Below are positions 1 through 64,000 of a DNA stretch of 64,000 nucleotides, piece by piece (positions within the stretch are counted from its first letter, which is position 1; each line of letters begins with the position of its first letter). A program made the translations under genes and the position numbers. The DNA comes from Chlorella sorokiniana (taxonomy: Eukaryota > Chlorophyta > Trebouxiophyceae > Chlorellales > Chlorellaceae), in assembly GCA_025917655.1 (NCBI GenBank), contig CP084620.1, positions 2,294,001-2,358,000 of the forward strand. The letters run 5' to 3'. The notes below the pieces were generated by a model. That model worked only from the letters and a program-made list of their open reading frames with translations. It ran no database searches and was not told the origin of the DNA.

Positions 1-3000
1 GCTATCTCGCTTCTTGATGGAGCTCAGCATGGATGTGTCGGCGGTGATGACCAGGATGTCGTCGACGTAGATGAGCAGGTAGACTGGTGGAGAGGACAGC
101 TTGATGAAGAGGCCTGGGTCGGCGGCTGACTCGGTGAAGCCCATGGACTCGATCTCGGTCTTCGTGGTGCGATGCCGGCTCGAGAAGCTTGCTTGAGTCC
201 ATAGAGGGCCTTGTTCGGCTTGCATGCTTGGTCATGGTTGCCGTTGTGGTAGCCAGGAGGTTGCCGAATGTAGACGTCTTCGTCCGGCTTGCCGTTGAGG
301 AAGGCGGTCTTGATGTCCACTGGTGAATCTCTAGGTCCAGGTCGGCAAAGAATGGCCAACACGGTGCGCAGTGGTGGAGTACTTGGAGACAGTGCAAACA
401 CTTGGTCGTAGTCGATGCCTTCGCGTTGGTGGAAGCCTTTGACGACGAGGCGGGCCTTGTAGCGCTCGATGTTGCCGTTGGCGTCGCGCTTCTCCTTGTA
501 GACCCACTTGATCGGAATGGGCTTGACGCCGGGAGGTGTAGGTTGCGGTGGTCCAGTGTTGTTGGCGGCCGTGGAAGCGATCTCCTCGTCCATGGCGGAG
601 CGCCAAAGGTCGGCGTTGGGAGATTGCGGTGGCTTCCTCCGTGGTGGTAGGCTCACCTGTTGCGGTGGCGATGTTGATGGTGGCTCGAGAGGTGATGCGG
701 TATGCGTCGTCCCGCCACCGGGCTGGCTGGGCGGCGCGCGCAGCCAAGACGCTCGGTGCGCCGCAGTGGCGATGGGAGGAGAAGGTGGGTCTTCAGGCTC
801 GGCTGGTGCTCCCACGGACTCGGTGTCGCCGGTGTCATCGTTGTCGATGAGGGAAATGGTCTCGGCGGGATGGGCTTGGGCAGGTTGGAGCTGGCCTCAT
901 TGAAGGTGACATCGCGGGCCGATGACGATGGAGCCGTTGTCCGGCCAGATCTTGTAGCCTTTGGTGTTGGTGGGGTAGCCGATGAAGCGGCCGGGCTCGC
1001 TAACCGCATCGAGCTTGGAGCGTAGTCTTTGTTGGAATGTGGGCGTAGGCACGGGCGCCAAAGATGCGCAGTGGGAGAGGTCGGGCTTGGTGCCGTGAAG
1101 CATCTCGTAGGGGGTGACGTCTTGGGCAGATGTTGGCGAGCGGTTGCGCAAGTAGTTGGCGGTGACGATGGCTTCGGCCCAAAGATGCTTGGGCAGGTTG
1201 TACTCGGCCGCATGGGGCGCGCCTTGTCCAGCGGGGTGCGGTTGAGACGCTCGGCCTTGCCGTTTTGCTTGGGCGTGTAGGAGACGGTGGTCTCGACCGG
1301 ATGCCCTTGGACTTGTAGAAGGTGTCCGGTCGTTGTTGATGAACTCGCCGCCGTTGTCGAGCGGATGCGCTTGACGGTGTGGCCGGTCCGACGCTCCAGC
1401 CGGAGTTGACGGTGGTCTTCGGGAAGTCGGCGGCGTCGGACTTGCGGCGCAAGGGAGCGATGTGAGAGTAGCCGTGTGTAGTCATCCAGATGGTCATGAA
1501 GTACTGTGCCGCCACCGTGGGAGGGGACCGGCATGGGACCGCAGAGGTCGGTGTGCAGCAGCTCCAGAGGCTTGTGGGTGAAGGAGGTGGAGGCGTTGAA
1601 CGGTTGGCGATGTTGCTTGCCCCCAGGTGCGGCGTCGTGTGTGTCCGCGCCGGTGGCTTTGAAGTCGAGGGGTCGATGCCGATGCCGGTGGCCATGGTGG
1701 TGAGCTTGGCCAGGTTGTCGTAGCCGAGGTGGCCGAGGCGGCGGTGCCACACGGAGTTGGGTGTGTGGGCGCGTGCGCGTAGGCGATGGTGAGGGCGTAG
1801 GCGGCGGAGCCCGGCTCGAGGCGGCGGGCCGGCCAGTGGTAGGTGTTCTTCGGTGGCGTCGGTGTAGCCGTAGGCAATCATGTGGTTGCCCATGGAGATC
1901 CGCGGCCGGTGCGGTCAAAGGAGAAGCCGATGCCTTTTCGGGTGGCTCGGTTGACGGACGGTGTTGGAATACGATCAACGTCCCTATATGGCACCACAAA
2001 TGGGCACATACTAATTAACCTCCCGGGTTGGCGCTTTTAACAGGTTATGGGCCCCAATGCGCTAGATGGGCGCTTGTCACATACACCCACAGATCGTGGG
2101 TTCGATTCCCATCACGGGACATCCAGGTTTCCGGCCTGTAAAACGTTTCTCCACTCGGAAGCGGGGAGCGGCCCGCCTTCACGATCGTGGTTAGGTACGA
2201 AGCGAGCATACGGAACGTTGCTCGGGGGAGTGTTGGAATACGATCAACGTCCCTATATGGCACCACAAATGGGCACATACTAATTAACCTCCGGGTTGGC
2301 GCTTTTAACAGACGGGAGGTTGTCGGCGGCGTCGGCATGTAGAGCACGTCGGTGAGCTTGATCGGTTGTCAAGGTTGGGCCGCAGTACGCGTCGCCGATG
2401 AGGGTGGCCTCTCCTACGCCGCCGTTGCCGAAAGTGATGCGGATGGGCTGCGGCGCCGGCGCAGTTGGTGAGGAGTTGCCGGTGTGGTGTGATGTGCCGG
2501 CTCGCTCCGGTGTCCACGATCCAGTTGTCGCCGATGGTGTTGGAGGTGGTGGCGGCGGTGGTTGAAGCGGCGGGCTTCCATGTCGCGGCGCTTCTTGTTG
2601 CACTCGTGGGCGTAGTGGCCAGGCTTGTGGCAGTAGAGGCAGGTGCCTTCGGCGTAGGCGCGGGCATCGCGGAGGAGCGCTCGTCGACGCGGATGCCGAA
2701 GGTGCGTGGTGGGCCAAAGTTGGGTGGTGGACCGTTGAAGTTGGGCGGCCGCATGCGGGGTTCTTCGGCTGCGGGGGCCACCGCCGCGAGGGCCGTTGTT
2801 GCGGTTGATGCCGTTGATGTTGCGGGGAGCGCCATCTTTGTTGGAGTGCCGGTCGTCGCGGCGAGGATGGAAGGAGGCCATCGGGCTGAGTCGGAGCTGC
2901 GGATGACGTCGGGCTTGGCGCGGCGGTGCTCGGCTTGCGAAGGTGGGGCAGGATGTCATCCACGGTGAATGTGCCGGCGGAGGCGGTGGTGGTTTCGATG

Positions 3001-4281
3001 ACGGTGACGACTGTGTCGAAGGTGGAGGGCAGGCCAGCCAGGACTTGGCACGCCACGTCGATGTCTTCGACCTTGTGGCCGGCGGCGTTGAGCTGGTCTT
3101 GCGGGGCCTTGGCACGGTTGGTGAAGGCGGTGACGGTCTCGGTGGAGGCCATCTTCAGAGAGTTGAGCTCACGGCGCAGTTGGAGCTTGCGTGCGAAGGA
3201 CTTGGCGGCGAAGATGCCTTGCAGAGTGGTCCAGGCTTGGTTGGCCGTGGTGCGGCGCAGGATGGTTGGCTGGTGGTGGGGCTTGACGAGGAGGCCGATG
3301 TAGGAGAGGGCGAGCTCGTCCGCCTTGATGTCCTCGGGAGTTGTTGGGGCCTCGGTGCTGACGACGGTGTGCCAGCACTTCTTGGTGGTGAGGAAGAACT
3401 TCATGTTGGCTGCCCACACTGTGTAGTTGTCCCAGTCCAGCCGCTCAATGGACATGCCGTCTGTCGCCATGCTGTCCACGCTTGTGTGCAACTGCTGACT
3501 GCTGACGGCTGGCGGCCGCTAGCAGGCACCTTGTGCCTCTGCTAGTGCGTGCTCGGAGGTGCCGCGGCAAGGGGTGCCGCAGATTGTGCCGCCGGAGATG
3601 GCTGGCGGAAAGGTGGGGAAGGTCGGTGCCTAAGAATAAGTAGCCGGTACGTGGCACACGAGGCCAGGCACCGAACGGGGGAGCTGCGTGCCACACGTGG
3701 ACAGCACAGCCCAGGCACCACCTTTGAGTAAATGTAACAGAAGTGGAGGAATAGACGGGAAAGGGGGCAGGACAGATGTGGATGGCAGCGGCGCTCGACG
3801 GCGCTAGGGCACTGCCTGAAGGAGAGTGCCCGGGGGGCAAAGGCAGCGGCGCACTTAGGCGCTGGGGCACTGCCAATAACGGAGGGGCCAGAGGGGCGGA
3901 GCAGCGGCGCGCGGAGGCGCTAGGGCGCTGCTTGCACTTATCTTAAGTGGTTGTGTCAGCGTAGAGCTACGGCAGTGGGTTGAGGCAAAGTGGAAGTTTA
4001 GTAACTTGGCGGGAGGCGGGGTATCGAGCTGGTCACAAGTGACCCAACTCGCTTACTCAGCTGCCACACAGCTGCTCAAGCCTCTTTGCGAGCAGGTGCT
4101 GTCGAAAGCAGATTTAGGCTGCCGGAAAGCAGAATTGAGCTGTCGGCTGCTGGCTGGCAGCTAGGCAGCAAAAGGCGCTGGCTGTGCGAGCGAAAGGCGG
4201 CGCTGTGCGAGCGAAAAGGCGCTGCTATGTGCGAAATGTGCCGCAAGCAAAGGCGGGCTTAGTCTGAGAGGCTTCGGTCGA
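1..4281 (-). mobile_element. Ty1/copia element, degraded, 3' end outside the window
   Basis: Minus-strand copia copy running from reverse transcriptase (near base 1) through integrase and protease to gag (ATG of the MATDGMS start near 3470) and most of the leader (3492-4281). Protein matches to the whole copy at 9170-14903 are clear throughout, including the zinc-knuckle region near 2600-2660. A complete TRIM sits inside it at 1962-2310. The copy is broken in more than ten places and cannot encode a full polyprotein. The upstream end stops abruptly at 4281, where the DNA flips into a plus-strand leader. The gag and leader part (about 3000-4281) is much closer to the whole copy than the pol part. 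Confidence 0.93.
1962..2310 (+). mobile_element. Complete TRIM (miniature LTR element) with target duplication
   Basis: LTRs at 1962-2042 and 2231-2310 (81 and 80 bp, TGTTG...AACA) flank a non-coding inner part that starts with the primer site GGTTATGGGCCCC and ends in the purine tract CTCGGGGGAG. The flanks show a 5-bp duplication, GACGG, at 1957-1961 and 2311-2315, and the copia sequence on both sides is continuous. It is therefore a true integration by an integrase rather than an assembly join. The inner part carries the tRNA-like segment described at 50004-50074. No reading frame. Confidence 0.93.
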
Positions 4282-4571
4282 AGCCGTCTATTCCTCCCCT
4301 TCTCCTACATTTACTCAAAGGTGGTGCCTGGGCTGTGCTGTCCTCGTGTGGCACGCAGCTCCCCGTTCGGTGCCTGGCCTCGTGTGCCACGTACCGGCTA
4401 CTTATTCTAAGGCACCGACCTTCCCCACCTTTCCGCCAGCCATCTCCGGCGGCACAATCTGCGGCACCCCTTGCCGCAGCACCTCCGAGCACGCACTAGC
4501 AGAGGCACAAGGTGCCTGCTAGCGGCCGCCAGCCGTCAGCAGTCAGCAGTCTGCACACAAGCGTGGACATC

Positions 4572-5473: not shown

Positions 5474-5825
5474 TGTTAAAAGCGCCAACCCGGAGGTTAA
5501 TTAGTATGTGCCCATTTGTGGTGCCATATAGGGACGTTGATCGTATTTCAACACTCCCCCCGAGCAACGTTCCGTATGCTCGCTTCGTACCTAACCACGA
5601 TCGTGAAGGCAGGGCTGCTCCCCCGCTTCCGAGTGGAGAAACGTTTTACAGGCCGGAAACCTGGATGTCCCGTGATGGGAATCGAACCCACAATCTGTGG
5701 GTGTATGTGACAACGCGCCCATCTAGCGCATTGGGGCCCATAACCTGTTAAAAGCGCCAACCCGAAGGTTAATTAGTATGTGCCCATTTGTGGTGCCATA
5801 TAGGGACGTTGATCGTATTTCAACA
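5474..5825 (-). mobile_element. Complete TRIM inside copia gag, with target duplication
   Basis: Minus-strand unit with LTRs at 5474-5553 and 5746-5825 (80 bp each). The primer site (reading CATAACC) lies just inside 5746, and the purine tract lies next to 5553. The 5-bp duplication GCATC is at 5469-5473 and 5826-5830. Host gag sequence resumes right after it. The inner part is non-coding and includes the tRNA-like segment. Confidence 0.93.
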
Positions 5826-8800
5826 GCATCAACCGCAACAACGGCCCTCGCGGCGGTGGCCCCCCAGCAGCAGCAACCCCCGCATGCGGCCGCCCAACTT
5901 CAACGGTCCACCACCCAGCTTTGGCCCACCACGCACCTTCGGCATCCGCGTCGACGAGCGCTCCTCCGCGATGCCCGCGCCTACGCCGAAGGCACCTGCC
6001 TCTACTGCCACAAGCCTGGCCACTACGCCCACGAGTGCAACAAGAAGCGCCGCGACATGGAAGCCCGCCGCTTCAACCAACGCCCGCCGCCTTCCAACCG
6101 CAGCGTCAACGCCCAGTACAGCGCCATCGCCTTCACCGCCGCCACCACCTCCAACACCATCAGCGACAACTGGATCGTGGACACTGGAGCGAGCCGGCAC
6201 ATCACACCACACCAGCAACTCCTCACCAACCTGCGCCCGGCGCCGCAGCCCATCCGCATCACTTTCGGCAACGGCAGCGTAGGAGAGGCCACCCTCATCG
6301 GCGACGCGTACCTGCAGCCCAACCTTGACAACCTGATCAAGCTCACCGACGTGCTCTACATGCCAGACGCCGCCGACAACCTCCTGTCCGTCAACCGAGC
6401 CACCCAGAAAGGCATCAGCTTCTCCTTTGACCGCACCGGCTGCCAGATCTCCATGGGCAACCACATGATTGCCTACGGCTACACCGACGCCACCAGCAAC
6501 ACCTACCACCTGGCCAGCCGCTGCCTCGAGCCAGGCTCCGCCGCCTACGCCCTCACCATCGCCTACGCTGCACGCGCCCACACACCCAACCTGTGGCACC
6601 GCCGCCTCGGCCACCTCGGCTACGACAACCTGGCCAAGCTCACCACCATGGCCACCGGCATCAGCATCGACCCCTCTGACTTCAAAGCCACCAGCGCAGA
6701 CACCTGCGACGCCTGCACCCTGGGCAAGCAACATCGCCAACCGTTCAACGCCTCCACCTCCTTCACCCACAAGCCTCTGGAGCTGCTGCACACCGACCTC
6801 TGCGGTCCCATGCCAGTCCCCTCCCACGGTGGCAGCCTGTACTTCATGACCATCCTGGATGACTACACTGGCTACTCTCACATCGCTCCCTTGCGCCGCA
6901 AGTCTGACGCCGCTGACTTCCTGAAGACCACCGTCAACCTGCTGGAGCGTCAGACCGGCCACACCGTCAAGCGCATCCGCTCTGACAACGGCGGCGAGTT
7001 CATCAACAACGACCTGGACACCTTCTACAAGTCCAAGGGCATCCAGTCAGAGACCACCGTCTCCTACACGCCCCAGCAAAACGGCAAGGCTGAGCGTCTC
7101 AACCGCACCCTGCTGGACAAGGCGCGCCCCATGCTGGCCGAGTACAACCTGCCCAAGCATCTTTGGGCCGAAGCCATCGTCACCGCCAACTACTTGCGCA
7201 ACCGCTCGCCAACATCTGCCCAAGACGTCACCCCCTACGAGATGCTTCACGGCACCAAGCCCGACCTCTCCCACCTGCGCATCTTTGGCGCCCGTGCCTA
7301 CGCCCACATTCCAACAGCACTACGCTCCAAGCTCGATGCAGTTAGCGAGCCCGGCCGCTTCATCGGCTACCCCACCAACACCAAAGGCTACAAGATCCTG
7401 CTGGACAACGGCTCCATCGTCATCAGCCGCGATGTCACCTTCAATGAGGCCAGCTCCAACCTGCCCAAGCCCATCCTGCCAGAGACCATTTCCCTCATCG
7501 ACAACGATGACACCGGCGACACCGAGTCCGTGGGAGCACCAGCCGAGCCTGAAGACCCACCTTCTCCTCCCATCGCCCTGCGGCGCACCGAGCGTGCCGC
7601 TGCGCGCCGCCCAGCCAGCCAGTGGCAGGACGACGCATACCGCATCACCTCTCGAGCCACCATCAACATCGCCACCGCAACAGCTGAGCCTACCACCCTG
7701 GAGGAAGCCCTGCAATCTCCCAACGCCGACCTTTGGCGCTCCGCCATGGACGAGGAGATCGCTTCCCTGGCCGCCAACAACACCTGGACCCTGCAACCTA
7801 CACCTCCTGGCGTCAAGCCCATTCCAGTCAAGTGGGTCTACAAGGAGAAGCGCGACGCCAACGGCAACATCGAGCGCTACAAGGCCCGCCTCGTCGTCAA
7901 AGGCTTCCACCAACGCGAAGGCATCGACTACGACCAAGTGTTTGCACCTGTCTCCAAGTACTCCACCCTGCGCACCGTGTTGGCCATTGCTGCCGACCTG
8001 GACCTAGAGATTCACCAGCTGGACATCAAGACCGCCTTCCTCAACGGCAAGCTGGACGAAGACGTCTACATTCAGCAACCTCCTGGCTACCACAACGGCA
8101 ACCATGACCAAGCATGCAAGCTGAACAAGGCCCTCTATGGACTCAAGCAAGCTTCTCGAGCCTGGCATCGCACCCTGAAGACCGAGATCGAGTCCATGGG
8201 CTTCACCGAGTCAGCTGCTGACCCAGGCCTCTTCATCAAGCTGTCCTCTCCACCAGTCTACCTGCTCATCTACGTCGACGACATCCTGGTCATCACCGCC
8301 GACACATCCATGCTGAGCTCCATCAAGAAGCAGATAGCCACCGCCTTCGACACCCGCGACCTGGGCCCAGCCTCCTTCTTCCTGGGCATCGACATCATGC
8401 GAGACCGCGCCTCCAAGACCATCAAGCTGACCCAGACCCGTCACACCACCGACCTGCTGTCCAAGTTCAGCATGGACAAGTCCAAGCCTTTCGACACACC
8501 CTCAAGCATCGCCTTCAAGCTCACCGCCGACGGAGACCCACTGGACATCTCAGAGCACCCCTACTCCACACTCATCGGCTCCCTCATGTACCTGGCATCC
8601 TGCACCAGACCCGATATCGCCCAAGCCGTGGGAGCGCTGGCCCGCTACATGTCCAAGCCCACCACCTCCCACTGGACTGCAGCCAAGCATGTGCTGCGCT
8701 ACCTCGCTGGTACCCCTGACTACGGCATCATCTTCAGCCCGTCCAACGCTACCCTCGACGCCTACTGCGACGCCAACCATGCTGGCGACATCGACACCCG

Positions 8801-9169
8801 CCGCTCCACCACCGGCTACGTCTTCACCTTCAAGAACGGCGCCATCACCTGGAGCTCACGCCTGCAACCCACCGTCGCCTCATCTACTACAGAAGCTGAG
8901 TACATGGCAGCCGCCTCCGCCGTCAAGGAAGCACCGTGGCTGCGCAAGCTCTTCGCTGACCTGGACCTGCACATCGCCTGCATCGACATCAAGTCAGACA
9001 GCCAATCAGCCATTCACATGCTGAAGAATCCAGTCATCTCCCTTCGCTCCAAGCACATCGACATCATCCACCACTTTGCACGCGAGCGCGTCATCCGTGG
9101 CGAAGTCAACTTCAGCTACATCCCCACCGATGCCATGGTTGCTGACATCCTGACCAAGCCCGTGCCCAC
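5826..9169 (+). pseudogene. copia gag-pol frame, 3' end cut off by an inserted copia element
   Basis: One open stretch reading the end of gag, zinc knuckle CLYCHKPGHYAHEC (near 5995-6040), protease WIVDTGASRH (near 6170-6200), integrase zinc finger HRRLGH...CDAC, the integrase acidic residues (TDLCGPM, SDNGGEF, GKAERLNRT), RT with YVDD (near 8270) and RNase H ([15 protein letters not shown]). It is almost identical to the frame at 9552-13598. The last few residues are separated by the element inserted at 9170 and lie at 14904-14951. It lacks the gag N-terminus in frame. Recent, judging by the near absence of differences from the whole copy. Confidence 0.93.
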
Positions 9170-9522
9170 TGTTGGATGGAGGTAGTTACAAAGAGCGCAA
9201 GAGTATGAAAGAGGGCGCAGAATGGCGCTAAATAGGCTGGAGCAGCACAATGCTACTATTGGCATTATTCCGGCATATGCGGGGTAGTGTTTGTGGTAGT
9301 GGCATGACGGCGGGGCTCAGGTGCACAGAAATGCATGGCATGGGGGTCAATCAACTTAGAATAAAGTGGGAAAGCATAATCGAAGGGTGTCTGAGCATAT
9401 TAGGCGGGTCAAGCTCATGCATGACGAAAGGGTGTCCACGTCAGCAGCGTCTGCCACGTGGCAGCTGGGGAGATGTGCTGCGGGTGTGCAGGCTGGACAT
9501 GTGGCTCAGCCACATCTCAACA
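9170..9522 (-). repeat. 3' LTR of the whole copia element
   Basis: 353 bp, TGTTG...CAACA when read on either strand. It sits after the purine tract of the minus-strand element. Contains the G-box palindrome and TGTAA signal described at 42212-42564. LTR subfamily A. Confidence 0.95.
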
Positions 9523-9551
9523 CTCCCACGCAGGCTGCACAGCCGCTGCAC

Positions 9552-12500
9552 TCAGGCGATGCCCATAGCTGCGCGGCAGTACTTGAACTTGTTGGTGGGC
9601 ACGGGCTTGGTCAGGATGTCAGCAACCATGGCATCGGTGGGGATGTAGCTGAAGTTGACTTCGCCACGGATGACGCGCTCGCGTGCAAAGTGGTGGATGA
9701 TGTCGATGTGCTTGGAGCGAAGGGAGATGACTGGATTCTTCAGCATGTGAATGGCTGATTGGCTGTCTGACTTGATGTCGATGCAGGCGATGTGCAGGTC
9801 CAGGTCAGCGAAGAGCTTGCGCAGCCACAGTGCTTCCTTGACGGCGGAGGCGGCTGCCATGTACTCAGCTTCTGTAGTAGATGAGGCGACGGTGGGTTGC
9901 AGGCGTGAGCTCCAGGTGATGGCGCCGTTCTTGAAGGTGAAGACGTAGCCGGTGGTGGAGCGGCGGGTGTCGATGTCGCCAGCATGGTTGGCGTCGCAGT
10001 AGGCGTCGAGGGTAGCGTTGGACGGGCTGAAGATGATGCCGTAGTCAGGGGTACCAGCGAGGTAGCGCAGCACATGCTTGGCTGCAGTCCAGTGGGAGGT
10101 GGTGGGCTTGGACATGTAGCGGGCCAGCGCTCCCACGGCTTGGGCGATATCGGGTCTGGTGCAGGATGCCAGGTACATGAGGGAGCCGATGAGTGTGGAG
10201 TAGGGGTGCTCTGAGATGTCCAGTGGGTCTCCGTCGGCGGTGAGCTTGAAGGCGATGCTTGAGGGTGTGTCGAAAGGCTTGGACTTGTCCATGCTGAACT
10301 TGGACAGCAGGTCGGTGGTGTGACGGGTCTGGGTCAGCTTGATGGTCTTGGAGGCGCGGTCTCGCATGATGTCGATGCCCAGGAAGAAGGAGGCTGGGCC
10401 CAGGTCGCGGGTGTCGAAGGCGGTGGCTATCTGCTTCTTGATGGAGCTCAGCATGGATGTGTCGGCGGTGATGACCAGGATGTCGTCGACGTAGATGAGC
10501 AGGTAGACTGGTGGAGAGGACAGCTTGATGAAGAGGCCTGGGTCAGCAGCTGACTCGGTGAAGCCCATGGACTCGATCTCGGTCTTCAGGGTGCGATGCC
10601 AGGCTCGAGAAGCTTGCTTGAGTCCATAGAGGGCCTTGTTCAGCTTGCATGCTTGGTCATGGTTGCCGTTGTGGTAGCCAGGAGGTTGCTGAATGTAGAC
10701 GTCTTCGTCCAGCTTGCCGTTGAGGAAGGCGGTCTTGATGTCCAGCTGGTGAATCTCTAGGTCCAGGTCGGCAGCAATGGCCAACACGGTGCGCAGGGTG
10801 GAGTACTTGGAGACAGGTGCAAACACTTGGTCGTAGTCGATGCCTTCGCGTTGGTGGAAGCCTTTGACGACGAGGCGGGCCTTGTAGCGCTCGATGTTGC
10901 CGTTGGCGTCGCGCTTCTCCTTGTAGACCCACTTGACTGGAATGGGCTTGACGCCAGGAGGTGTAGGTTGCAGGGTCCAGGTGTTGTTGGCGGCCAGGGA
11001 AGCGATCTCCTCGTCCATGGCGGAGCGCCAAAGGTCGGCGTTGGGAGATTGCAGGGCTTCCTCCAGGGTGGTAGGCTCAGCTGTTGCGGTGGCGATGTTG
11101 ATGGTGGCTCGAGAGGTGATGCGGTATGCGTCGTCCTGCCACTGGCTGGCTGGGCGGCGCGCAGCGGCACGCTCGGTGCGCCGCAGGGCGATGGGAGGAG
11201 AAGGTGGGTCTTCAGGCTCGGCTGGTGCTCCCACGGACTCGGTGTCGCCGGTGTCATCGTTGTCGATGAGGGAAATGGTCTCTGGCAGGATGGGCTTGGG
11301 CAGGTTGGAGCTGGCCTCATTGAAGGTGACATCGCGGCTGATGACGATGGAGCCGTTGTCCAGCAGGATCTTGTAGCCTTTGGTGTTGGTGGGGTAGCCG
11401 ATGAAGCGGCCGGGCTCGCTAACTGCATCGAGCTTGGAGCGTAGTGCTGTTGGAATGTGGGCGTAGGCACGGGCGCCAAAGATGCGCAGGTGGGAGAGGT
11501 CGGGCTTGGTGCCGTGAAGCATCTCGTAGGGGGTGACGTCTTGGGCAGATGTTGGCGAGCGGTTGCGCAAGTAGTTGGCGGTGACGATGGCTTCGGCCCA
11601 AAGATGCTTGGGCAGGTTGTACTCGGCCAGCATGGGGCGCGCCTTGTCCAGCAGGGTGCGGTTGAGACGCTCAGCCTTGCCGTTTTGCTGGGGCGTGTAG
11701 GAGACGGTGGTCTCTGACTGGATGCCCTTGGACTTGTAGAAGGTGTCCAGGTCGTTGTTGATGAACTCGCCGCCGTTGTCAGAGCGGATGCGCTTGACGG
11801 TGTGGCCGGTCTGACGCTCCAGCAGGTTGACGGTGGTCTTCAGGAAGTCAGCGGCGTCAGACTTGCGGCGCAAGGGAGCGATGTGAGAGTAGCCAGTGTA
11901 GTCATCCAGGATGGTCATGAAGTACAGGCTGCCACCGTGGGAGGGGACTGGCATGGGACCGCAGAGGTCGGTGTGCAGCAGCTCCAGAGGCTTGTGGGTG
12001 AAGGAGGTGGAGGCGTTGAACGGTTGGCGATGTTGCTTGCCCAGGGTGCAGGCGTCGCAGGTGTCTGCGCTGGTGGCTTTGAAGTCAGAGGGGTCGATGC
12101 TGATGCCGGTGGCCATGGTGGTGAGCTTGGCCAGGTTGTCGTAGCCGAGGTGGCCGAGGCGGCGGTGCCACAGGTTGGGTGTGTGGGCGCGTGCAGCGTA
12201 GGCGATGGTGAGGGCGTAGGCGGCGGAGCCTGGCTCGAGGCAGCGGCTGGCCAGGTGGTAGGTGTTGCTGGTGGCGTCGGTGTAGCCGTAGGCAATCATG
12301 TGGTTGCCCATGGAGATCTGGCAGCCGGTGCGGTCAAAGGAGAAGCTGATGCCTTTCTGGGTGGCTCGGTTGACGGACAGGAGGTTGTCGGCGGCGTCTG
12401 GCATGTAGAGCACGTCGGTGAGCTTGATCAGGTTGTCAAGGTTGGGCTGCAGGTACGCGTCGCCGATGAGGGTGGCCTCTCCTACGCTGCCGTTGCCGAA

Positions 12501-14540: not shown

Positions 14541-14553
14541 GGGGCCCATAACC
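14541..14553 (-). other. Primer binding site, half initiator-tRNA-Met type
   Basis: On the minus strand the element reads GGTTATGGGCCCC immediately after the LTR end CA. Its complement GGGCCCATAACC is the 3' side of the anticodon loop and stem of eukaryotic initiator tRNA-Met. Drosophila copia uses the same inner tRNA site after tRNA cleavage. Every LTR-to-leader junction in the window, and every TRIM, has this site. Confidence 0.88.
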
Positions 14554-18660: not shown

Positions 18661-18665
18661 CAATC

Positions 18666-18666
<1 letters not shown>

Positions 18667-18698: not shown

Positions 18699-18699
<1 letters not shown>

Positions 18700-45485: not shown

Positions 45486-45499
45486 CGGTGTTTAACATG
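45486..45499 (+). other. 14-base filler CGGTGTTTAACATG
   Basis: Sits between two copia pieces that do not adjoin in the intact element. The same 14 bases occur at 37957-37970, 53899-53912 and 61423-61436, in two unrelated contexts. They are not part of either element family. Confidence 0.85.
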
Positions 45500-50747: not shown

Positions 50748-50851
50748 CACAATGCTACTATTGGCATTATTCCGGCATATGCGGGGTAGGAGAGGCCACC
50801 CTCATCGGCGACGCGTACTGCGGCCCAACCTTGACAACCTGATCAAGCTCC
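50748..50851. mobile_element. Scraps of copia LTR and protease region
   Basis: 50748-50789 is a minus-strand copia LTR piece (ending ATATGCGGGGTAG). 50788-50851 is a plus-strand piece from the protease region. Joined with a few shared bases (GTAGGAGAGG). Nothing coding. Confidence 0.8.
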
Positions 50852-52712: not shown

Positions 52713-53841
52713 GACCACAAATGGGCACATACTAATTAACCTCCGGGTTGGCGCTTTTAACGGGTTATGGGCCCCAATGCGCTAGATGGGCGCGTCACAC
52801 ATACACCCACCGGTCGTGGGTTCGATTCCCATCACGGGACATCCAGGTTTCCGGCACAGTAAAACGTTTCTCCACTCGGAAGCGGGGGAGCGGCCACGCC
52901 TTCACGAACGTGGTTAGGTACGAAGCGAGCATACGGAACGTTGCTCGGGGGAGTGTTGGAATACGATCAACGTCCCTATATGGCACCACAAATGGGCACA
53001 TACTAATTAACCTCCGGGTTGGCGCTTTTAACGGGTTATGGGCCCCAATGCGCTAGATGGGCGCGTTGTCACATACACCCACGTAGTTGTGGGTTCGATT
53101 CCCATCACGGGACATCCGGGTTTCCGGCTCAGTAAAACGTTTCTCCACTCGGAAGCGGGGAGCGGCCACGCCTTCACGAACGTGGTTAGGTACGAAGCGA
53201 GCATACGGAACGTTGCTCGGGGGAGTGTTGGAATACGATCAACGTCCCTATATGGCACCACAAATGGGCACATACTAATTAACCTCCGGGTTGGCGCTTT
53301 TAACAGGTTATGGGCCCCAATGCGCTAGATGGGCGCGTTGTCACATACACCCACAGATTGTGGGTTCGATTCCCATCACGGGACATCCAGGTTTCCGGCA
53401 CAGAAACGTTTCTCCACTCGGAAGCGGGGGAGCAGCCACTGCCTTCACGAACGTGGTTAGGTACGAAGCGAGCATACGGAACGTTGCTCGGGGGAGTGTT
53501 GGAATACGATCAACGTCCCTATATGGCACCACAAATGGGCACATACTAATTAACCTCCGGGTTGGCGCTTTTAACAGGTTATGGGCCCCAATGCGCTAGA
53601 TGGGCGCGTCACATACACCCACAGTTGTGGGTTCGATTCCCATCACGGGACATCCAGGTTTCCGGCCCGTAAAACGTTTCTCCACTCGGAAGCGGGGAGC
53701 AGCCCGCCTTCACGAACGTGGTTAGGTACGAAGCGAGCATACGGAACGTTGCTCGGGGGAGTGTTGGAATACGATCAACGTCCCTATATGGCACCACAAA
53801 TGGGCACATACTAATTAACCTCCGGGTTGGCGCTTTTAACA
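52713..53841 (+). mobile_element. TRIM array IV, four inner units
   Basis: Partial LTR at 52713-52762, then LTRs at 52954-53033, 53226-53305, 53497-53576 and 53762-53841. Same number of units as its twin, array II. The tRNA-like segments show both spacer types before the B box. Confidence 0.92.
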
Positions 53842-54121
53842 GGTTATGGGCCCCATAACCTGTTGGATGGAGGTAGTTACAAAGAGCGCAAGAGTGCTCG
53901 GTGTTTAACATGTGCTTCGCCGTAACTACCTCCATCCGTAGAGAAACGTTTTACGGGCCGGAAACCTGGATGTCCCGTGATGGGAATCGAACCCACGACC
54001 GGTGGGTGTATGTGACGCCGCGCCCATCTAGCGCATTGGGGCCCATAACCTGTTAAAAGCGCCAACCCGGAGGTTAATTAGTATGTGCCCATTTGTGGTG
54101 CCATATAGGGACGTTGATCGT
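53842..54121. mobile_element. Primer-site palindrome, fold-back filler and TRIM fragment
   Basis: Palindrome at 53842-53860; copia LTR end 53861-53894; filler 53895-53921; reversed LTR end 53922-53937; minus-strand TRIM inner part and LTR 53938-54121. Second copy of 37900-38182. Confidence 0.88.
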
Positions 54122-56257
54122 AACAAACACTCCCGCCGAGAGACCATTTCCCTCATCGACAACGATGACACCGGCGACACCGAGTCCGTGGGAGCACCCG
54201 GCCGAGCTCGAAGACCCACCTTCTCCTCCCATCGCCCTGCGGCGCACCGAGCGTGCGTCTTGCGCGCGCCCCCGCCCGGCCGGTGGCGGGGACGACGCAT
54301 ACCGCATCACCTCTCGAGCCACCATCAACATCGCCACCGCAACAGTGAGCCTACCACCCCGGGAGGAAGCCCCGCAATCTCCCAACGCCGACCTTTGGCG
54401 CTCCGCCATGGACGAGGAGATCGCTTCCCGGCCGCCAACAACACTGGACCACGCAACCTACACCTCCCGGCGTCAAGCCCATTCCGATCAAGTGGGTCTA
54501 CAAGGAGAAGCGCGACGCCAACGGCAACATCGAGCGCTACAAGGCCCGCCTCGTCGTCAAAGGCTTCCACCAACGCGAAGGCATCGACTACGACCAAGTG
54601 TTTGCACCTGTCTCCAAGTACTCCACCCCGCGCACCGTGTTGGCCATTCTTTGCCGACTGGACCTAGAGATTCACCACTGGACATCAAGACCGCCTTCCT
54701 CAACGGCAAGCCGGACGAAGACGTCTACATTCGGCAACCTCCTGGCTACCACAACGGCAACCATGACCAAGCATGCAAGCCGAACAAGGCCCTCTATGGA
54801 CTCAAGCAAGCTTCTCGAGCCCGGCATCGCACCACGAAGACCGAGATCGAGTCCATGGGCTTCACCGAGTCGCCCGCCGACCCAGCCTCTTCATCAAGCC
54901 GTCCTCTCCACCCGGTCTACTGCTCATCTACGTCGACGACATCCCGGTCATCACCGCCGACACATCCATGCCGAGCTCCATCAAGAAGCGAGATAGCCAC
55001 CGCCTTCGACACCCGCGACTGGGCCCAGCCTCCTTCTTCTTCCGGGCATCGACATCATGCGAGACCGCGCCTCCAAGACCATCAAGGCGACCCGGACCCG
55101 TCACACCACCGACCTGTTTGTCCAAGTTCGGCATGGACAAGTCCAAGCCTTTCGACACACCCTCAAGCATCGCCTTCAAGCTCACCGCCGACGGAGACCC
55201 ACTTTGGACATCTCGAGCACCCCCTACTCCACACTCATCGGCTCCCTCATGTACCTGGCATCCCGCACCAGACCCGATATCGCCCAAGCCGTGGGAGCGC
55301 CCCCGCTACATGTCCAAGCCCACCACCTCCCACCGGACTGCAGCCAAGCATGTCTTTGCGCTACCTCGGCCGGTACCCACGACTACGGCATCATCTTCAG
55401 CCCGTCCAACGCTACCCTCGACGCCTCTTTGCGACGCCAACCATGCTGGCGACATCGACACCCGCCGCTCCACCACCGGCTACGTCTTCACCTTCAAGAA
55501 CGGCGCCATCACCTGGAGCTCACGCCGCAACCCACCGTCGCCTCATCTACTACGAAGCTGAGTACATGGCGGCCGCCTCCGCCGTCAAGGAAGCACTGTG
55601 GCTGCGCAAGCTCTTCGCCGACTGGACTCCGCACATCGCCCGCATCGACATCAAGTCGAGACCCAATCAGCCATTCACATGCTGAAGAATCCAGTCATCT
55701 CCCTTCGCTCCAAGCACATCGACATCATCCACCACTTTGCACGCGAGCGCGTCATCCGTGGCGAAGTCAACTTCAGCTACATCCCCACCGATGCCATGGT
55801 TGCTGACATCCCGACCAAGCCCGTGCCCACCAACAAGTTCAAGTCTTGCCCGCGCGACTATGGGCATCGCTCGAGTGCGGCGGGCCGTGCGGCCTGCGTG
55901 GGAGTGTTGAGATGTGGCTGAGCCACATGTCCAGCCTGCACACCCGCAAAGACATCTCCCCCAGCTGCCACGTGGCGACGCCGCCGACGTGGACACCCTT
56001 TCGTCATGCATGAGCTTGACCCGCCTAATATGCTCGACACCCTTCGATTATGCTTTCCCACTTTATTCTAAGTTGATTGACCCCCATGCCATGCATTTCT
56101 GTGCACCTGAGCCCCGCCGTCATGCCACTACCACAAACACTACCCCGCATATGCCGGAATAATGCCAATAGTAGCATTGTCTTGCTCCAGCCTATTTAGC
56201 GCCATTCTGCGCCCTCTTTCATACTCTTGCGCTCTTTGTAACTACCTCCATCTAACA
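54122..56257 (+). mobile_element. copia fragment from linker to 3' LTR, degraded
   Basis: Plus-strand linker, RT and RNase H, then an LTR at 55905-56257 ending TCTAACA. Broken in more than ten places. Second copy of 38183-40312. Confidence 0.9.
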
Positions 56258-56528
56258 GGTTATGGGCCCCAATGCGCTAGATGGGCGCGCTGTCACATAC
56301 ACCCACAGATTGTGGGTTCGATTCCCATCACGGGACATCCAGGTTTCCGGCCTGTAAAACGTTTCTCCACTCGGAAGCGGGGGAGCAGCCCCGCCTTCAC
56401 GATCGTGGTTAGGTACGAAGCGAGCATACGGAACGTTGCTCGGGGGAGTGTTGAAATACGATCAACGTCCCTATATGGCACCACAAATGGGCACATACTA
56501 ATTAACCTCCGGGTTGGCGCTTTTAACA
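56258..56528 (+). mobile_element. TRIM inner unit and LTR behind a copia LTR
   Basis: Joined to the copia LTR at the primer site, ends with a TRIM LTR at 56449-56528. Second copy of 40313-40585. Confidence 0.9.
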
Positions 56529-58149
56529 GGTACGTGCGGGACGACGCATACCGCATCACCTCTCGAGCCACCATCAACATCGCCACCGCAACAGCTGAGC
56601 CTACCACCCCGGAGGAACCCGCAATCTCCCAACGCCGACCTTTGGCGCTCCGCCATGGACGAGGAGATCGCTTCCCGGCCGCCAACAACACTGGACCACG
56701 CAACCTACACCTCCCGGCGTCAAGCCCATTCCAGGTCAAGTGGGTCTACAAGGAGAAGCGCGACGCCAACGGCAACATCGAGCGCTACAAGGCCCGCCTC
56801 GTCGTCAAAGGCTTCCACCAACGCGAAGGCATCGACTACGACCAAGTGTTTGCACCTGTCTCCAAGTACTCCACCACTGCGCACCGTGTTGGCCATTGCT
56901 GCCGACCTGGACCTAGAGATTCACCAGCTGGACATCAAGACCGCCTTCCTCAACGGCAAGCTGGACGAAGACGTCTACATTCAGCAACCTCCTGGCTACC
57001 ACAACGGCAACCATGACCAAGCATGCAAGCTGAACAAGGCCCTCTATGGACTCAAGCAAGCTTCTCGAGCCTGGCATCGCACCCTGAAGACCGAGATCGA
57101 GTCCATGGGCTTCACCGAGTCAGCTGCTGACCCAGGCCTCTTCATCAAGCTGTCCTCTCCACCAGTCTACCTGCTCATCTACGTCGACGACATCCTGGTC
57201 ATCACCGCCGACACATCCATGCTGAGCTCCATCAAGAAGCAGATAGCCACCGCCTTCGACACCCGCGACCTGGGCCCAGCCTCCTTCTTCCTGGGCATCG
57301 ACATCATGCGAGACCGCGCCTCCAAGACCATCAAGCTGACCCAGACCCGTCACACCACCGACCTGCTGTCCAAGTTCAGCATGGACAAGTCCAAGCCTTT
57401 CGACACACCCTCAAGCATCGCCTTCAAGCTCACCGCCGACGGAGACCCACTGGACATCTCAGAGCACCCCTACTCCACACTCATCGGCTCCCTCATGTAC
57501 CTGGCATCCTGCACCAGACCCGATATCGCCCAAGCCGTGGGAGCGCTGGCCCGCTACATGTCCAAGCCCACCACCTCCCACTGGACTGCAGCCAAGCATG
57601 TGCTGCGCTACCTCGCTGGTACCCCTGACTACGGCATCATCTTCAGCCCGTCCAACGCTACCCTCGACGCCTACTGCGACGCCAACCATGCTGGCGACAT
57701 CGACACCCGCCGCTCCACCACCGGCTACGTCTTCACCTTCAAGAACGGCGCCATCACCTGGAGCTCACGCCTGCAACCCACCGTCGCCTCATCTACTACA
57801 GAAGCTGAGTACATGGCAGCCGCCTCCGCCGTCAAGGAAGCACTGTGGCTGCGCAAGCTCTTCGCTGACCTGGACCTGCACATCGCCTGCATCGACATCA
57901 AGTCAGACAGCCAATCAGCCATTCACATGCTGAAGAATCCAGTCATCTCCCTTCGCTCCAAGCACATCGACATCATCCACCACTTTGCACGCGAGCGCGT
58001 CATCCGTGGCGAAGTCAACTTCAGCTACATCCCCACCGATGCCATGGTTGCTGACATCCTGACCAAGCCCGTGCCCACCAACAAGTTCAAGTACTGCCGC
58101 GCAGCTATGGGCATCGCTGAGTGCAGCGGCTGTGCAGCCTGCGTGGGAG
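56529..58149 (+). mobile_element. copia RT and RNase H fragment
   Basis: Plus-strand pol from the linker to the C-terminus. From about 56885 onward it is open and essentially identical to the whole copy. The first 350 bases are altered. Second copy of 40586-42211, with the change from altered to unaltered at the same place. Confidence 0.92.
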
Positions 58150-58502
58150 TGTTGAGATGTGGCTGAGCCACATGTCCAGCCTGCACACCCGCAGCACATC
58201 TCCCCAGCTGCCACGTGGCAGACGCTGCTGACGTGGACACCCTTTCGTCATGCATGAGCTTGACCCGCCTAATATGCTCAGACACCCTTCGATTATGCTT
58301 TCCCACTTTATTCTAAGTTGATTGACCCCCATGCCATGCATTTCTGTGCACCTGAGCCCCGCCGTCATGCCACTACCACAAACACTACCCCGCATATGCC
58401 GGAATAATGCCAATAGTAGCATTGTGCTGCTCCAGCCTATTTAGCGCCATTCTGCGCCCTCTTTCATACTCTTGCGCTCTTTGTAACTACCTCCATCCAA
58501 CA
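58150..58502 (+). repeat. copia LTR (subfamily A), shared by two bodies
   Basis: 353 bp, same layout as 42212-42564, between the RNase H end of one copy and the primer site (58503) of the next. Confidence 0.94.
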
Positions 58503-59457
58503 GGTTATGGGCCCCAGCTCCCTCCTCTGCCCTTGAGTCCGGCACACGCTCTTGCCGTCACCCCAGACGCCTTTTCTCGCTGCCAGCGCCCCTCGCACCA
58601 CTCGCGAGCACTTCCGCCTCGACCTCCGGAACGGCGCCTTCGACCGAAGCCTCTCAGACTAAGCCCGCCTTTGCTTGCGGCACATTTCGCACATAGCAGC
58701 GCCTTTTCGCTCGCACAGCGCCGCCTTTCGCTCGCACAGCCAGCGCCTTTTGCTGCCTAGCTGCCAGCCAGCAGCCGACAGCTCAATTCTGCTTTCCGGC
58801 AGCCTAAATCTGCTTTCGACAGCACCTGCTCGCAAAGAGACAGCTGCTTGAGCAGCTGTGTGGCAGCTGAGTAAGCGAGTTGGGTCACTTGTGACCAGCT
58901 CGATACCCCGCCTCCCGCCAAGTTACTAAACTTCCACTTTGCCTCAACCCACTGCCGTAGCTCTACGCTGACACAACCACTTAAGATAAGTGCAAGCAGC
59001 GCCCTAGCGCCTCCGCGCGCCGCTGCTCCGCCCCTCTGGCCCCTCCGTTATTGGCAGTGCCCCAGCGCCTAAGTGCGCCGCTGCCTTTGCCCCCCTGGGC
59101 ACTCTCCTTCAGGCAGTGCCCTAGCGCCGTCGAGCGCCGCTGCCATCCACATCTGTCCTGCCCCCCTTTCCCGTCTATTCCTCCACTTCTGTTACATTTA
59201 CTCAAAGGTGGTGCCTGGGCTGTGCTGTCCACGTGTGGCACGCAGCTCCCCGTTCGGTGCCTGGCCTCGTGTGCCACGTACCGGCTACTTATTCTTAGGC
59301 ACCGACCTTCCCCACCTTTCCGCCAGCCATCTCCGGCGGCACAATCTGCGGCACCCCTTGCCGCGGCACCTCCGAGCACGCACTAGCAGAGGCACAAGGT
59401 GCCTGCTAGCGGCCGCCAGCCGTCAGCAGTCAGCAGTTGCACACAAGCGTGGACAGC
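58503..59457 (+). other. copia primer site and leader
   Basis: Primer site, two inverted repeats and three 58-bp direct repeats as at 42565-43520. No gene. Confidence 0.85.
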
Positions 59458-61422
59458 ATGGCGACAGACGGCATGTCCATTGAGCGGCTGGACTGGGACA
59501 ACTACACAGTGTGGGCAGCCAACATGAAGTTCTTCCTCACCACCAAGAAGTGCTGGCACACCGTCGTCAGCACCGAGGCCCCAACAACTCCCGAGGACAT
59601 CAAGGCAGACGAGCTCGCCCTCTCCTACATCGGCCTCCTCGTCAAGCCCCACCACCAGCCAACCATCCTGCGCTGCACCACGGCCAACCAAGCCTGGACC
59701 ACTCTGCAAGGCATCTTCGCCGCCAAGTCCTTCGCACGCAAGCTCCAACTGCGCCGTGAGCTCAACTCTCTGAAGATGGCCTCCACCGAGACCGTCACCG
59801 CCTTCACCAACCGTGCCAAGGCCCTGCAAGACCAGCTCAACGCCGCCGGCCACAAGGTCGAAGACATCGACGTGGCGTGCCAAGTCCTGGCTGGCCTGCC
59901 CTCCACCTTCGACACAGTCGTCACCGTCATCGAAACCACCACCGCCTCCGCCGGCACATTCACCGTGGATGACATCCTGCCCCACCTTCTGCAAGCCGAG
60001 CACCGCCGCGCCAAGCCCGACGTCATCCGCAGCTCCGACTCAGCCCTGATGGCCTCCTTCCATCCTCGCCGCGACGACCGGCACTCCAACAGCAATGGCG
60101 CTCCCCGCAACATCAACGGCATCAACCGCAACAACGGCCCTCGCGGCAGTGGCCCCGCAGCAGCAACCCCCGCATGCGGCCGCCCAACTTCAACGGTCCA
60201 CCACCCAGCTTTGGCCCACCACGCACCTTCGGCATCCGCGTCGACGAGCGCTCCTCCCGCGATGCCCGCGCCTACGCCGAAGGCACCTGCCTCTACTGCC
60301 ACAAGCCTGGCCACTACGCCCACGAGTGCAACAAGAAGCGCCGCGACATGGAAGCCCGCCGCTTCAACCAACGCCCGCCGCCTTCCAACCGCAGCGTCAA
60401 CGCCCAGTACAGCGCCATCGCCTTCACCGCCGCCACCACCTCCAACACCATCAGCGACAACTGGATCGTGGACACTGGAGCGAGCCGGCACATCACACCA
60501 CACCAGCAACTCCTCACCAACCTGCGCCCGGCGCCGCAGCCCATCCGCATCACTTTCGGCAACGGCAGCGTAGGAGAGGCCACCCTCATCGGCGACGCGT
60601 ACCTGCAGCCCAACCTTGACAACCTGATCAAGCTCACCGACGTGCTCTACATGCCAGACGCCGCCGACAACCTCCTGTCCGTCAACCGAGCCACCCAGAA
60701 AGGCATCAGCTTCTCCTTTGACCGCACCGGCTGCCAGATCTCCATGGGCAACCACATGATTGCCTACGGCTACACCGACGCCACCAGCAACACCTACCAC
60801 CTGGCCAGCCGCTGCCTCGAGCCAGTTCACCCACAAGCCTCTGGAGCTGCTGCACACCGACCTCTGCGGTCCCATGCCAGTCCCCTCCCACGGTGGCAGC
60901 CTGTACTTCATGACCATCCTGGATGACTACACTGGCTACTCTCACATCGCTCCCTTGCGCCGCAAGTCTGACGCCGCTGACTTCCTGAAGACCACCGTCA
61001 ACCTGCTGGAGCGTCAGACCGGCCACACCGTCAAGCGCATCCGCTCTGACAACGGCGGCGAGTTCATCAACAACGACCTGGACACCTTCTACAAGTCCAA
61101 GGGCATCCAGTCAGAGACCACCGTCTCCTACACGCCCCAGCAAAACGGCAAGGCTGAGCGTCTCAACCGCACCCAGCTGAACAAGGCCCTCTATGGACTC
61201 AAGCAAGCTTCTCGAGCCTGGCATCGCACCCTGAAGACCGAGATCGAGTCCATGGGCTTCACCGAGTCAGCTGCTGACCCAGGCCTCTTCATCAAGCTGT
61301 CCTCTCCACCAGTCTACCTGCTCATCTACGTCGACGACATCCTGGTCATCACCGCCGACACATCCATGCTGAGCTCCATCAAGAAGCAGATAGCCACCGC
61401 CTTCGACACCCGCGACCTGGGC
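59458..61422 (+). pseudogene. Shortened copia gag-pol copy, second occurrence
   Basis: ATG at 59458. Same shape and nearly the same bases as 43521-45485: gag, zinc knuckle, protease, an integrase core piece, an RT piece with YVDD, then the 14-base filler at 61423. Internally shortened, so not a full gag-pol. Confidence 0.9.
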
Positions 61423-61437
61423 CGGTGTTTAACATGA
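61423..61437 (+). other. 14-base filler, second tandem copy
   Basis: CGGTGTTTAACATG at 61423-61436 between unrelated copia pieces, as at 45486. Confidence 0.85.
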
Positions 61438-62401
61438 CAATCTGATCAAGCTCACCGATGTGCTCTACATGCCCGACGCCGCCGACAACCTCCTGTCCGT
61501 CAACCGAGCTACCCAGAAGGGCATCAGCTTCTCCTTCGACCGCACCGGCTGCCAGATCTCCATGGGCAACCACATGATTGCCTACGGCTACACCGACGCC
61601 ACCAGCAACACCTACCACCTGGCCAGCCGCTGCCTCGAGCCAGGCTCCGCCGCCTACACCCTCAAACATCGCCTTCAAGCTCACCGCCGACGGAGACCCA
61701 CTGGACATCTCAGAGCACCCCTACTCCACACTCATCGGCTCCCTCATGTACCTGGCATCCTGCACTAGACCCGACATCGCCCAAGCCGTGGGAGCGCTGG
61801 CCCGCTACATGTCCAAGCCCACCACCTCCCACTTGACTGCAGCCAAGCATGTGCTGCGCTACCTCGCTGGTACCCCTGACTACGGCATCATCTTCAGCCC
61901 GTCCAACGCTACCCTCGACGCCTACTGCGACGCCAACCATGCTGGCGACATCGACACCCGCCGCTCCACCACCGGCTACGTCTTCACCTTCAAGAACGGC
62001 GCCATCACCTGGAGCTCACGCCTGCAACCAACCGTCGCCGCATCTACTACAGAAGCTGAGTACATGGCAGCCGCCTCCGCCGTCAAGGAAGCACTGTGGC
62101 TGCGCAAGCTCTTCGCTGACCTGGACCTGCACATCGCCTGCATCGACATCAAGTCAGACAGCCAATCAGCCATTCACATGCTGAAGAATCCAGTCATCTC
62201 CCTTCGCTCCAAGCACATCGACATCATCCACCACTTTGCACGCGAGCGCGTCATCCGTGGCGAAGTCAACTTCAGCTACATCCCCACCGATGCCATGGTT
62301 GCTGACATCCTGACCAAGCCCGTGCCCACCAACAAGTTCAAGTACTGCCGCGCAGCTATGGGCATCGCCTGAGTGCAGCGGCTGTGCAGCCTGCGTGGGA
62401 G
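61438..62401 (+). pseudogene. copia protease-region piece fused to RNase H piece
   Basis: Starts like 45500 (DNLIKLTDVLYMP) but passes within about 220 bases into the region before RNase H. It then reads RNase H ([15 protein letters not shown]) to the normal pol stop near 62372 and the purine tract. The RNase H part is unaltered and recent. The copy is internally shortened. Confidence 0.88.
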
Positions 62402-62754
62402 TGTTGAGATGTGGCTGAGCCACATGTCCAGCCTGCACACCCGCAGCACATCTCCCCAGCTGCCACGTGGCAGGCGCTGCTGACGTGGACACCCTTTCGT
62501 CATGCATGAGCCCAACTTAGCTAATATGCTCAGACACCCTTCGATTATGCTTTCCCACTTTATTCTAAGTTGATTGACCCCAATGCCATGCATTTCTGTG
62601 CACCTGAGCCCCGCCGTCATGCCACTACCACAAACACTACCCCGCATATGCCGGAATAATGCCAATAGTAGCATTGTGCTGCTCCAGCCTATTTAGCGCC
62701 ATTCTGCGCCCTCTTTCATACTCTTGCGCTCTTTGTAACTACCTCCATCCAATA
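62402..62754 (+). repeat. copia LTR (subfamily B)
   Basis: 353 bp with the marker GCCCAACTTAGC and GACCCCAATGCC. Ends AATA instead of AACA next to the primer site. It begins the element that leaves the window at 64000. Confidence 0.93.
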
Positions 62755-63708
62755 GGTTATGGGCCCCAGCTCCCTCCTCTGCCCTTGAGTCCGGCACACG
62801 CTCTTGCCGTCACCCCAGACGCCTTTTCTCGCTGCCAGCGCCCCGAGCACCACTCGCGAGCACTTCCGCCTCGACCTCCGGAACGGCGCCTTCGACCGAA
62901 GCCTCTCAGACTAAGCCCGCCTTTGCTTGCGGCACATTTCGCACATAGCAGCGCCTTTTCGCTCGCACAGCGCCGCCTTTCGCTCGCACAGCCAGCGCCT
63001 TTTGCTGCCTAGCTGCCAGCCAGCAGCCGACAGCTCAATTCTGCTTTCCGGCAGCCTAAATCTGCTTTCGACAGCCCCTGCTCGCAAAGAGACAGCTGCT
63101 TGAGCAGCTGTGTAGCAGCTGAGTAAGCGAGTTGGGTCACTTGTGACCAGCTCGATACCCCGCCTCCCGCCAAGTTACTAAACTTCCACTTTGCCTCAAC
63201 CCACTGCCGTAGCTCTACGCTGTCACAACCACTTAAGATAAGTGCAAGCAGCGCCCTAGCGCCTCCGTGCGCCGCTGCTCCGCCCCTCTGGCCCCTCCGT
63301 TACTGGCAGTGCCCCAGCGCCTAAGTGCGCCGCTGCCTTTGCCCCCCTGGGCACTCTCCTTTAGGCAGTGCCCAAGCGCGTTGAGCGCCGCTGCCTCCCA
63401 CACCTGTCCTGCCCCCTTTCCCGTCTATTCCTCCCCTTCTCCTACATTTACTCAAAGGTGGTGCCTGGGCTGTGCTGTCCTCGTGTGGCACGCAGCTCCC
63501 CGTTCGGTGCCTGGCCTCGTGTGCCACGTACCGGCTACTTATTCTAAGGCACCGACCTTCCCCACCTTTCCGCCAGCCATCTCCGGCGGCACAATCTGCG
63601 GCACCCCTTGCCGCAGCACCTCCGAGCACGCACTAGCAGAGGCACAAGGTGCCTGCTAGCGGCCGCCAGCCGTCAGCAGTCAGCAGTCTGCACACAAGCG
63701 TGGACATC
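62755..63708 (+). other. copia primer site and leader (subfamily B)
   Basis: Primer site at 62755, then a leader with the same inverted and direct repeats as subfamily A. It has fixed differences, such as CCTCCCCTTCTCCTACATTT near 63430, that are shared with the leader piece at 4282. Confidence 0.85.
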
Positions 63709-64000
63709 ATGGCGACCGATGGCATGTCTATTGAGCGGCTGGACTGGGACAACTACACAGTGTGGGCAGCCAACATGAAGTTCTTCCTCACCACCAAGAA
63801 GTGCTGGCACACCGTCGTCAGCACCGCGGCCCCAACCACTCCCGAGGACATCAAGGCAGACGAGCTCGCCCTCTCCTACATCGGCCTCCTCGTCAAGCCC
63901 CACCACCAGCCAACCATACTGCGCTGCACCACCGCCAACCAAGCCTGGACCACTCTGCAAGGCATCTTCGCCGCCAAGTCCTTCGCACGCAAGCTCCAAC
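63709..64000 (+). CDS. copia Gag N-terminus (subfamily B), runs off the window
   Basis: ATG at 63709, reading MATDGMSIERLDWDNYTVW and the first 97 residues of the UBN2-like gag domain without a break. The subfamily B variant has Ile where subfamily A has Ser just before the start Met in the upstream reading, and fixed third-position changes. Whether the rest is whole cannot be seen. Confidence 0.88.
   Translation, partial: MATDGMSIERLDWDNYTVWAANMKFFLTTKKCWHTVVSTAAPTTPEDIKADELALSYIGLLVKPHHQPTILRCTTANQAWTTLQGIFAAKSFARKLQ

Follow-up and report, generated by a model that had tools for sequence, protein, structure and literature searches.

Why should copies of one retrotransposon in a single cluster differ from each other almost exclusively at CAG and CTG triplets? 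The question is raised by a stretch of 64,000 nucleotides (hereafter the window; contig C4:2294001-2358000) in the genome assembly, 38.8 Mb in 15 contigs, of a Chlorella-clade green alga. The window is a centromere-like retrotransposon cluster built around a Ty1/copia element with gag, integrase and RVT_2 domains. Across the genome, Copia copies form one cluster per contig, and relatives of the element protein were found in Micractinium conductrix, Chlorella vulgaris and Parachlorella kessleri (among the matches listed, the best 120 of 148, with 8000 candidates scored). The assignment of the host to green algae also draws on 41 chlorophyll-binding matches and on an Lhca7 exon with ~93% identity, by a count made by eye, to chain 6zzx_7, a Chlorella ohadii structure. 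As set out below, the differences most likely do not exist in the DNA itself: they are very probably nanopore-type base-calling errors that entered the consensus at modified, probably 5-methylated, CWG triplets (CWG standing for CAG/CTG).

Specificity of the copy differences for CAG and CTG

An earlier reading of this DNA, made from the letters alone (the original prediction), compared three stretches by eye and reported that practically every difference lay on a CAG or CTG triplet. The three stretches bear this out: 20 of 20 difference blocks at 54600-55060 (9 with a length change; binomial P 1.7e-12), 13 of 14 at 30600-30850 (6 with a length change; P 6.7e-7) and 11 of 11 at 100-420 (5 with a length change; P 1.1e-7) lie at most 1 base from a clean-copy CAG/CTG, against a background cover of 0.23-0.28. 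It had also proposed counting the differences by trinucleotide context. For this count a single natural clean Copia copy (9169-14904, minus strand), rather than a built consensus, served as the reference for ten altered segments, comprising 11 alignment rows and nine physical copies. Seven of the segments lie in the window; the others are L022:8747-10000, which is the continuation of the copy at window positions 1-1966, and one each in the loci L023 and L028. The segments were chosen for being altered, a choice that leaves the comparison between contexts unbiased. The resulting distribution is far from even, with 781/1223 CWG triplets changed versus 196/13522 triplets located at least 3 bases away from any CWG, a 44-fold excess, and with no other triplet class changed at more than 3.4% in the altered copies. 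Changes away from CWG are fewest in the copies at 1-1966, 38193-40313 and 54131-56258, where two other triplets each are changed together with 67-69% of the CWG triplets. Real divergence is superimposed in some altered segments, with up to 5.2% of the other triplets changed in L023. Within the window, CWG accounts for 0.88-0.95 of the differences, versus a background of 0.23-0.24, in six segments (21837-27238, 45498-48767, 30104-33304, 38193-40313, 54131-56258 and 1-1966). The context originally named, CHG, is correct as far as CAG/CTG is concerned; CCG/CGG was changed in just 11/604 cases, hence the narrower designation CWG.

The family also offers its own controls, drawn from a survey of 52 alignments in which some loci overlap, so that some copies are counted twice. 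In copies from L029, L030, L037 and L038 and at window positions 62401-64000, with identities of 91.9-97.3%, CWG makes up 0.14-0.30 of the differences against a background of 0.18-0.27, and the number of CWG triplets is preserved to within a few. In five ordinarily diverged alignments, 73/591 CWG triplets were changed, which falls inside the 4.2-15.6% range of eight other classes. Because these control copies show no CWG bias, normal divergence of the same family does occur in this genome, and ordinary decay of the altered copies is rejected. The statement that copies differ almost only at CAG/CTG therefore holds for the altered copies, whereas clean copies and diverged ones (62401-64000, 61175-62755) are free of such bias. 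At the level of composition, ten 10-kb C4 loci off the centromere (L011-L018, L025, L026) contain 64-79 CAG/CTG per kb at an observed/expected CpG ratio of 0.73-0.82, and four 8-kb blocks of the altered window part contain 15-25 per kb at a ratio of 0.97-1.05.

Edit spectrum and tests for inheritance

A catalogue of isolated CWG sites from 20 alignments comprises 1029 site records, 626 of which are altered. The altered records include 237 changes of CTG to CCG, 91 losses of T and 32 changes of CT to AC, the remainder being complex; examples are TGCTG to TCTTTG and its reverse complement form, CAGCA to CAAAGA, and replacements of this type were found again at several sites. The earlier observation that the resulting strings often contain CpG is confirmed, a CpG being gained in 457/626 altered records. 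Length is changed in 265/626, and plain C-to-T or G-to-A changes make up 6/626, a spectrum on which C-to-T deamination or repeat-induced point mutation (RIP) is rejected. Sites read from the CTG side of the element are altered in 437/702 records and those from the CAG side in 189/327, and the edit spectrum varies with the assembly strand (chi-square P 9e-5, from records that are not independent). Per-site alteration rates across copies have a variance of 0.080 versus 0.022 by chance, which in our view reflects an error that depends on sequence.

A recent duplication of 10.6 kb (35113-45737 / 51031-61674), whose first half is altered and whose second half is clean, provides a built-in test of artefact versus inheritance. 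The duplicates differ at 128 blocks up to 40560 and at 7 more up to about 40.96 kb; the final ~4.7 kb adds just 5, of which two sit right at the end. Of 49 isolated CWG sites in the altered half, 19 carry the same edit in both duplicates, 14 carry different edits, 8 are edited in one duplicate only and 8 in neither. Strings at doubly altered sites are identical in 44/77 cases for duplicate pairs and in 69/107 for other plus-strand pairs; duplicate pairs have no more edits in common than comparable pairs do. Among all pairs sharing at least 15 sites, 689 of 1685 strings are identical versus 694 expected from site propensity. Agreement is 0.57-0.65 among four plus-strand copies versus 0.35-0.46 in the other groupings, and orientation could not be confirmed as the source of identical edits, with 82/1001 relabellings reaching the observed value. 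The pair concordance tests mostly speak against inheritance, apart from a small excess of agreement within subfamilies and the higher agreement of the plus-strand copies.

The same edits recur in sequence of another kind. Arrays of a 271-bp satellite lie between Copia copies in the altered domain (Table 1), and this satellite is unrelated to Copia yet carries the same CWG edits: its 15 units contain 14 variable blocks, all 5 blocks with CWG show Copia-type edits, and the remaining 9 consist of homopolymer lengths and simple substitutions or deletions. The column view was used here instead of a pairwise count (564/1413 blocks with CWG in either unit), which carries little information since both units are often altered. 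Of 35 residual differences between clean Copia copies, 20 concern the length of a homopolymer, which is the other feature typical of nanopore consensus error (script-assigned classes, of which at least one is misassigned, and several differences recur between copies or overlapping loci).

Altered and clean domains along the window

Altered and clean CWG sites are arranged as long runs along the window (Table 1). Clean window copies are 99.1-99.8% identical to the reference, and domain boundaries fall within single copies at ~2.9-3.1, 15.85, 40.96 and 45.6-45.8 kb, with another at ~56.7 kb (400-base bins). The altered block of C4 extends from L022 (~2.2927 Mb) to L023 (~2.363 Mb), and its left neighbour is clean sequence rich in transposable elements. 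Genome-wide, one marker site has 27 clean exact matches, distributed over ten contigs with 5 on C4, and 14 altered matches, namely 9 on C4 (7 of them in the window), 2 on C12 and 1 each on C5, C7 and C8.

Table 1. Copia copies and satellite arrays in the window, with positions counted from its first letter
Feature	Position	Strand	Remarks
Altered copy	1-1966	-	CWG 66/95 changed, other triplets 2/1084
Mixed copy	2290-4286	-	Low end altered, mostly clean above ~3.0 kb; boundary inside copy (400-base bins)
Clean partial copy	5820-9169	+	99.8% to yardstick
Clean copy, yardstick	9169-14904	-	Open 1355-aa gag-pol frame at 9552-13619
Mixed copy	14980-15933	+	Clean to ~15.85 kb, then altered
Altered copy	16751-18377	-	CWG 70/84 changed, other triplets 38/855
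Altered copy, second subfamily	18823-21868	-	
Altered near-complete copy	21837-27238	-	CWG 151/266 changed, other triplets 32/2976
Altered copy, second subfamily	27281-30108	-	
Altered copy	30104-33304	+	CWG 107/158 changed, other triplets 11/1762
271-bp satellite array	33650-35030		Altered domain
271-bp satellite array	36760-37913		Altered domain
Altered copy	38193-40313	+	CWG 71/105 changed, other triplets 2/1176
Mixed copy	40593-42565	+	First ~370 bases altered, rest clean; boundary inside copy
Clean copy	42211-44888	+	99.7% to yardstick
Altered copy	45498-48767	+	CWG 87/161 changed, other triplets 23/1798
271-bp satellite array	49106-50850		Altered domain
271-bp satellite array	52711-53855		Altered domain
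Altered copy	54131-56258	+	CWG 70/105 changed, other triplets 2/1176
Clean copy	58149-60825	+	99.8% to yardstick
Ordinarily diverged copy	61175-62755		No CWG bias
Ordinarily diverged copy	62401-64000	+	97.3%; CWG share of differences 0.30 vs background 0.26

In addition, a second Copia family, ~67% identical to the first, is represented by clean copies adjoining the altered block (L020, L021 and L022; C4:2264001-2294000). At C5:1460001-1477000 (L029, L037), a 1,909-base unit that includes part of the Copia element is repeated head-to-tail at ~99.8% identity and without CWG bias. Two Photo_RC matches on C15 led us to take that contig as plastid. A search against Rfam gave no match within the window at gathering scores.

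Probable miscalling of modified CWG, its rivals and known systems

The original suggestion that a base caller misreads methylated CHG remains the best fit, with CWG in place of all CHG, because the edits favour CpG, almost no C-to-T is seen, duplicate pairs show no extra sharing and the satellite repeats the pattern. The underlying DNA of altered stretches would most likely still read CAG/CTG, with a modified base at the CWG triplets, most probably 5-methylcytosine (5mC) on both strands (mCWG). A caller and consensus step naive to this modification would then write other strings, which would mostly place a G after the cytosine (CTG to CCG, CTG to CG, CCTG to CACG), while clean stretches would be those with unmodified CWG or with corrected errors. 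We infer the platform, 5mC itself, the writing enzyme and chromatin state as the cause of the domains. Several observations weigh against such miscalling. Flanking sequence of up to 3 bases is a weak predictor of the alteration rate (lowest P 0.026 in 7 tests), and sites in the same context share a modal edit beyond all 300 shuffles in just one of six context sizes. Of the 128 blocks that distinguish the altered halves of the duplicates, 73 lack CWG in both and are taken as sites altered in each. Agreement in the altered or unaltered state is 2086, below the site expectation of 2192. Pairs of the same subfamily agree more than others (399/879 vs 353/925, with 47/3003 relabellings reaching this), an excess that inheritance would produce. 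Moreover, the methylation data of a study on centromeres of two Chlorella species, in which CHG was not called, show lower, not higher, CpG methylation in the centromeres (PMC11005252).

The biological alternative raised originally, targeted mutation, is disfavoured. It would have repair or editing of modified CWG in silenced repeats leave substitutions and small indels, as a RIP-like defence of a green alga. CWG specificity, domains, site-consistent rates and the slightly higher agreement within subfamilies are what such hypermutation would leave, but the recurrence of complex replacements at several sites, the creation rather than loss of CpG, the scarcity of deamination-like records and the behaviour of duplicate pairs, which differ only in the altered half and share edits no more than comparable pairs, make it quite unlikely. 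That the edits are real because a repeat defence rewrites modified centromeric CWG in a CpG-favouring manner, fast enough for recent duplicates to have already diverged at CWG only, appears very unlikely. A miscalled mark of other chemistry than 5mC at CHG, such as N6-methyladenine in CAG or another cytosine mark, is likewise quite unlikely. The CTG and CAG sides are altered alike, as would be expected of a two-strand mark, the CpG-favouring outputs fit a methylated cytosine, and CHG methylation of Chlorella repeats has been reported (PMC9861306). Decay or the mixing of copies in a collapsed repeat, with no modification involved, is exceedingly improbable: the consensus of a highly repeated family can go wrong, but neither process picks out one trinucleotide, and ordinarily diverged copies of the family keep CWG shares close to background.

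A review describes Chlorella CHG methylation as restricted to repeats and the CMT-like enzymes of Chlorella as devoid of the chromodomain; the same review also cites uniform CHG/CHH methylation with little transposon enhancement for an alga (PMC9861306). Such algal CMTs were omitted from a tree for want of a chromodomain (PMC5410703), and CHG methylation in Picochlorum is given as <1% (PMC7593850). A PF00145 search of the genome revealed two DNMT loci, both on C4: L011 (C4:645000-654999), which by eye resembles DNMT1/MET1, and L012 (C4:1990000-1999999), a pieced query of which matches the DNMT1 superfamily in solved structures. L012, which has no chromodomain match nearby, may be the Chlorella CMT-like enzyme; the search for its relatives, made with a pieced query, was restricted to lengths that leave out full-length eukaryotic enzymes. 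Exon-by-exon searches, which can miss matches, detected 7 chromodomain matches in the genome, none of them on C4, and a sole BAH match on C8, with none on C4. A frame upstream of the second methyltransferase looks BAH-like only by eye and is unsupported by the BAH search. A plant-type CMT would be expected to affect all CHG, which is not what the nearly unchanged CCG/CGG triplets show; a mark on CCG, which contains CpG, might be called correctly, so that CCG methylation might be compatible with unchanged CCG.

If the edits are an artefact, transposon copies would be misdated, reading frames called broken and subfamilies invented, though the DNA may be intact. CAG/CTG differences among the transposon copies of this centromere should accordingly not be taken for real mutations. 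At the same time, the letters of the assembly would amount to a rough map of CWG modification, in which domains, boundaries inside copies and unmodified young copies would show up without any methylation data; the signature could also be sought in further publicly available long-read assemblies from plants and algae.

RIP and similar forms of repeat hypermutation change C to T at a specific short context. As in RIP, repeat copies are altered here at a short context, but C-to-T is nearly absent, indels and complex strings are numerous, and CpG is gained. The window also resembles the Copia-rich centromeres described for Chlorella (PMC11005252), one Copia cluster per contig being found here as well. 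With the Chlorella CHG and CMT-like system (PMC9861306) it shares the clade, the repeats, a CHG-type context and a second gene of the DNMT1 superfamily (L012) whose contig lacks a chromodomain match; in contrast, CCG is unaffected here and methylation is presumed. Among the matches listed, covering titles and the beginnings of abstracts with subscription papers outside the scope, there was no report of consensus errors specific to CWG or CHG in the assembly of a plant or alga. Errors of this kind are known; what is of interest is their domain structure in a centromere and the prospect of reading modification from them. Dcm places its methyl group on the inner C of CCWGG, and hence produces mCWG. 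In a Klebsiella pneumoniae benchmark with then-current callers, ~70% of Oxford Nanopore Technologies consensus errors fell in Dcm motifs, homopolymers coming next (PMC6591954), and lineage-specific methylation has been argued to lower calling accuracy in plants (PMC9749173). Like the Dcm errors, those described here would affect a methylated motif with a CWG core, together with homopolymers, and would arise from a caller untrained on the mark. The Dcm case, however, is bacterial, genome-wide and confined to CCWGG (PMC6591954), whereas the Chlorella case would involve any CWG, in only certain stretches of a eukaryotic centromere, at a far higher per-site rate and on a presumed platform.

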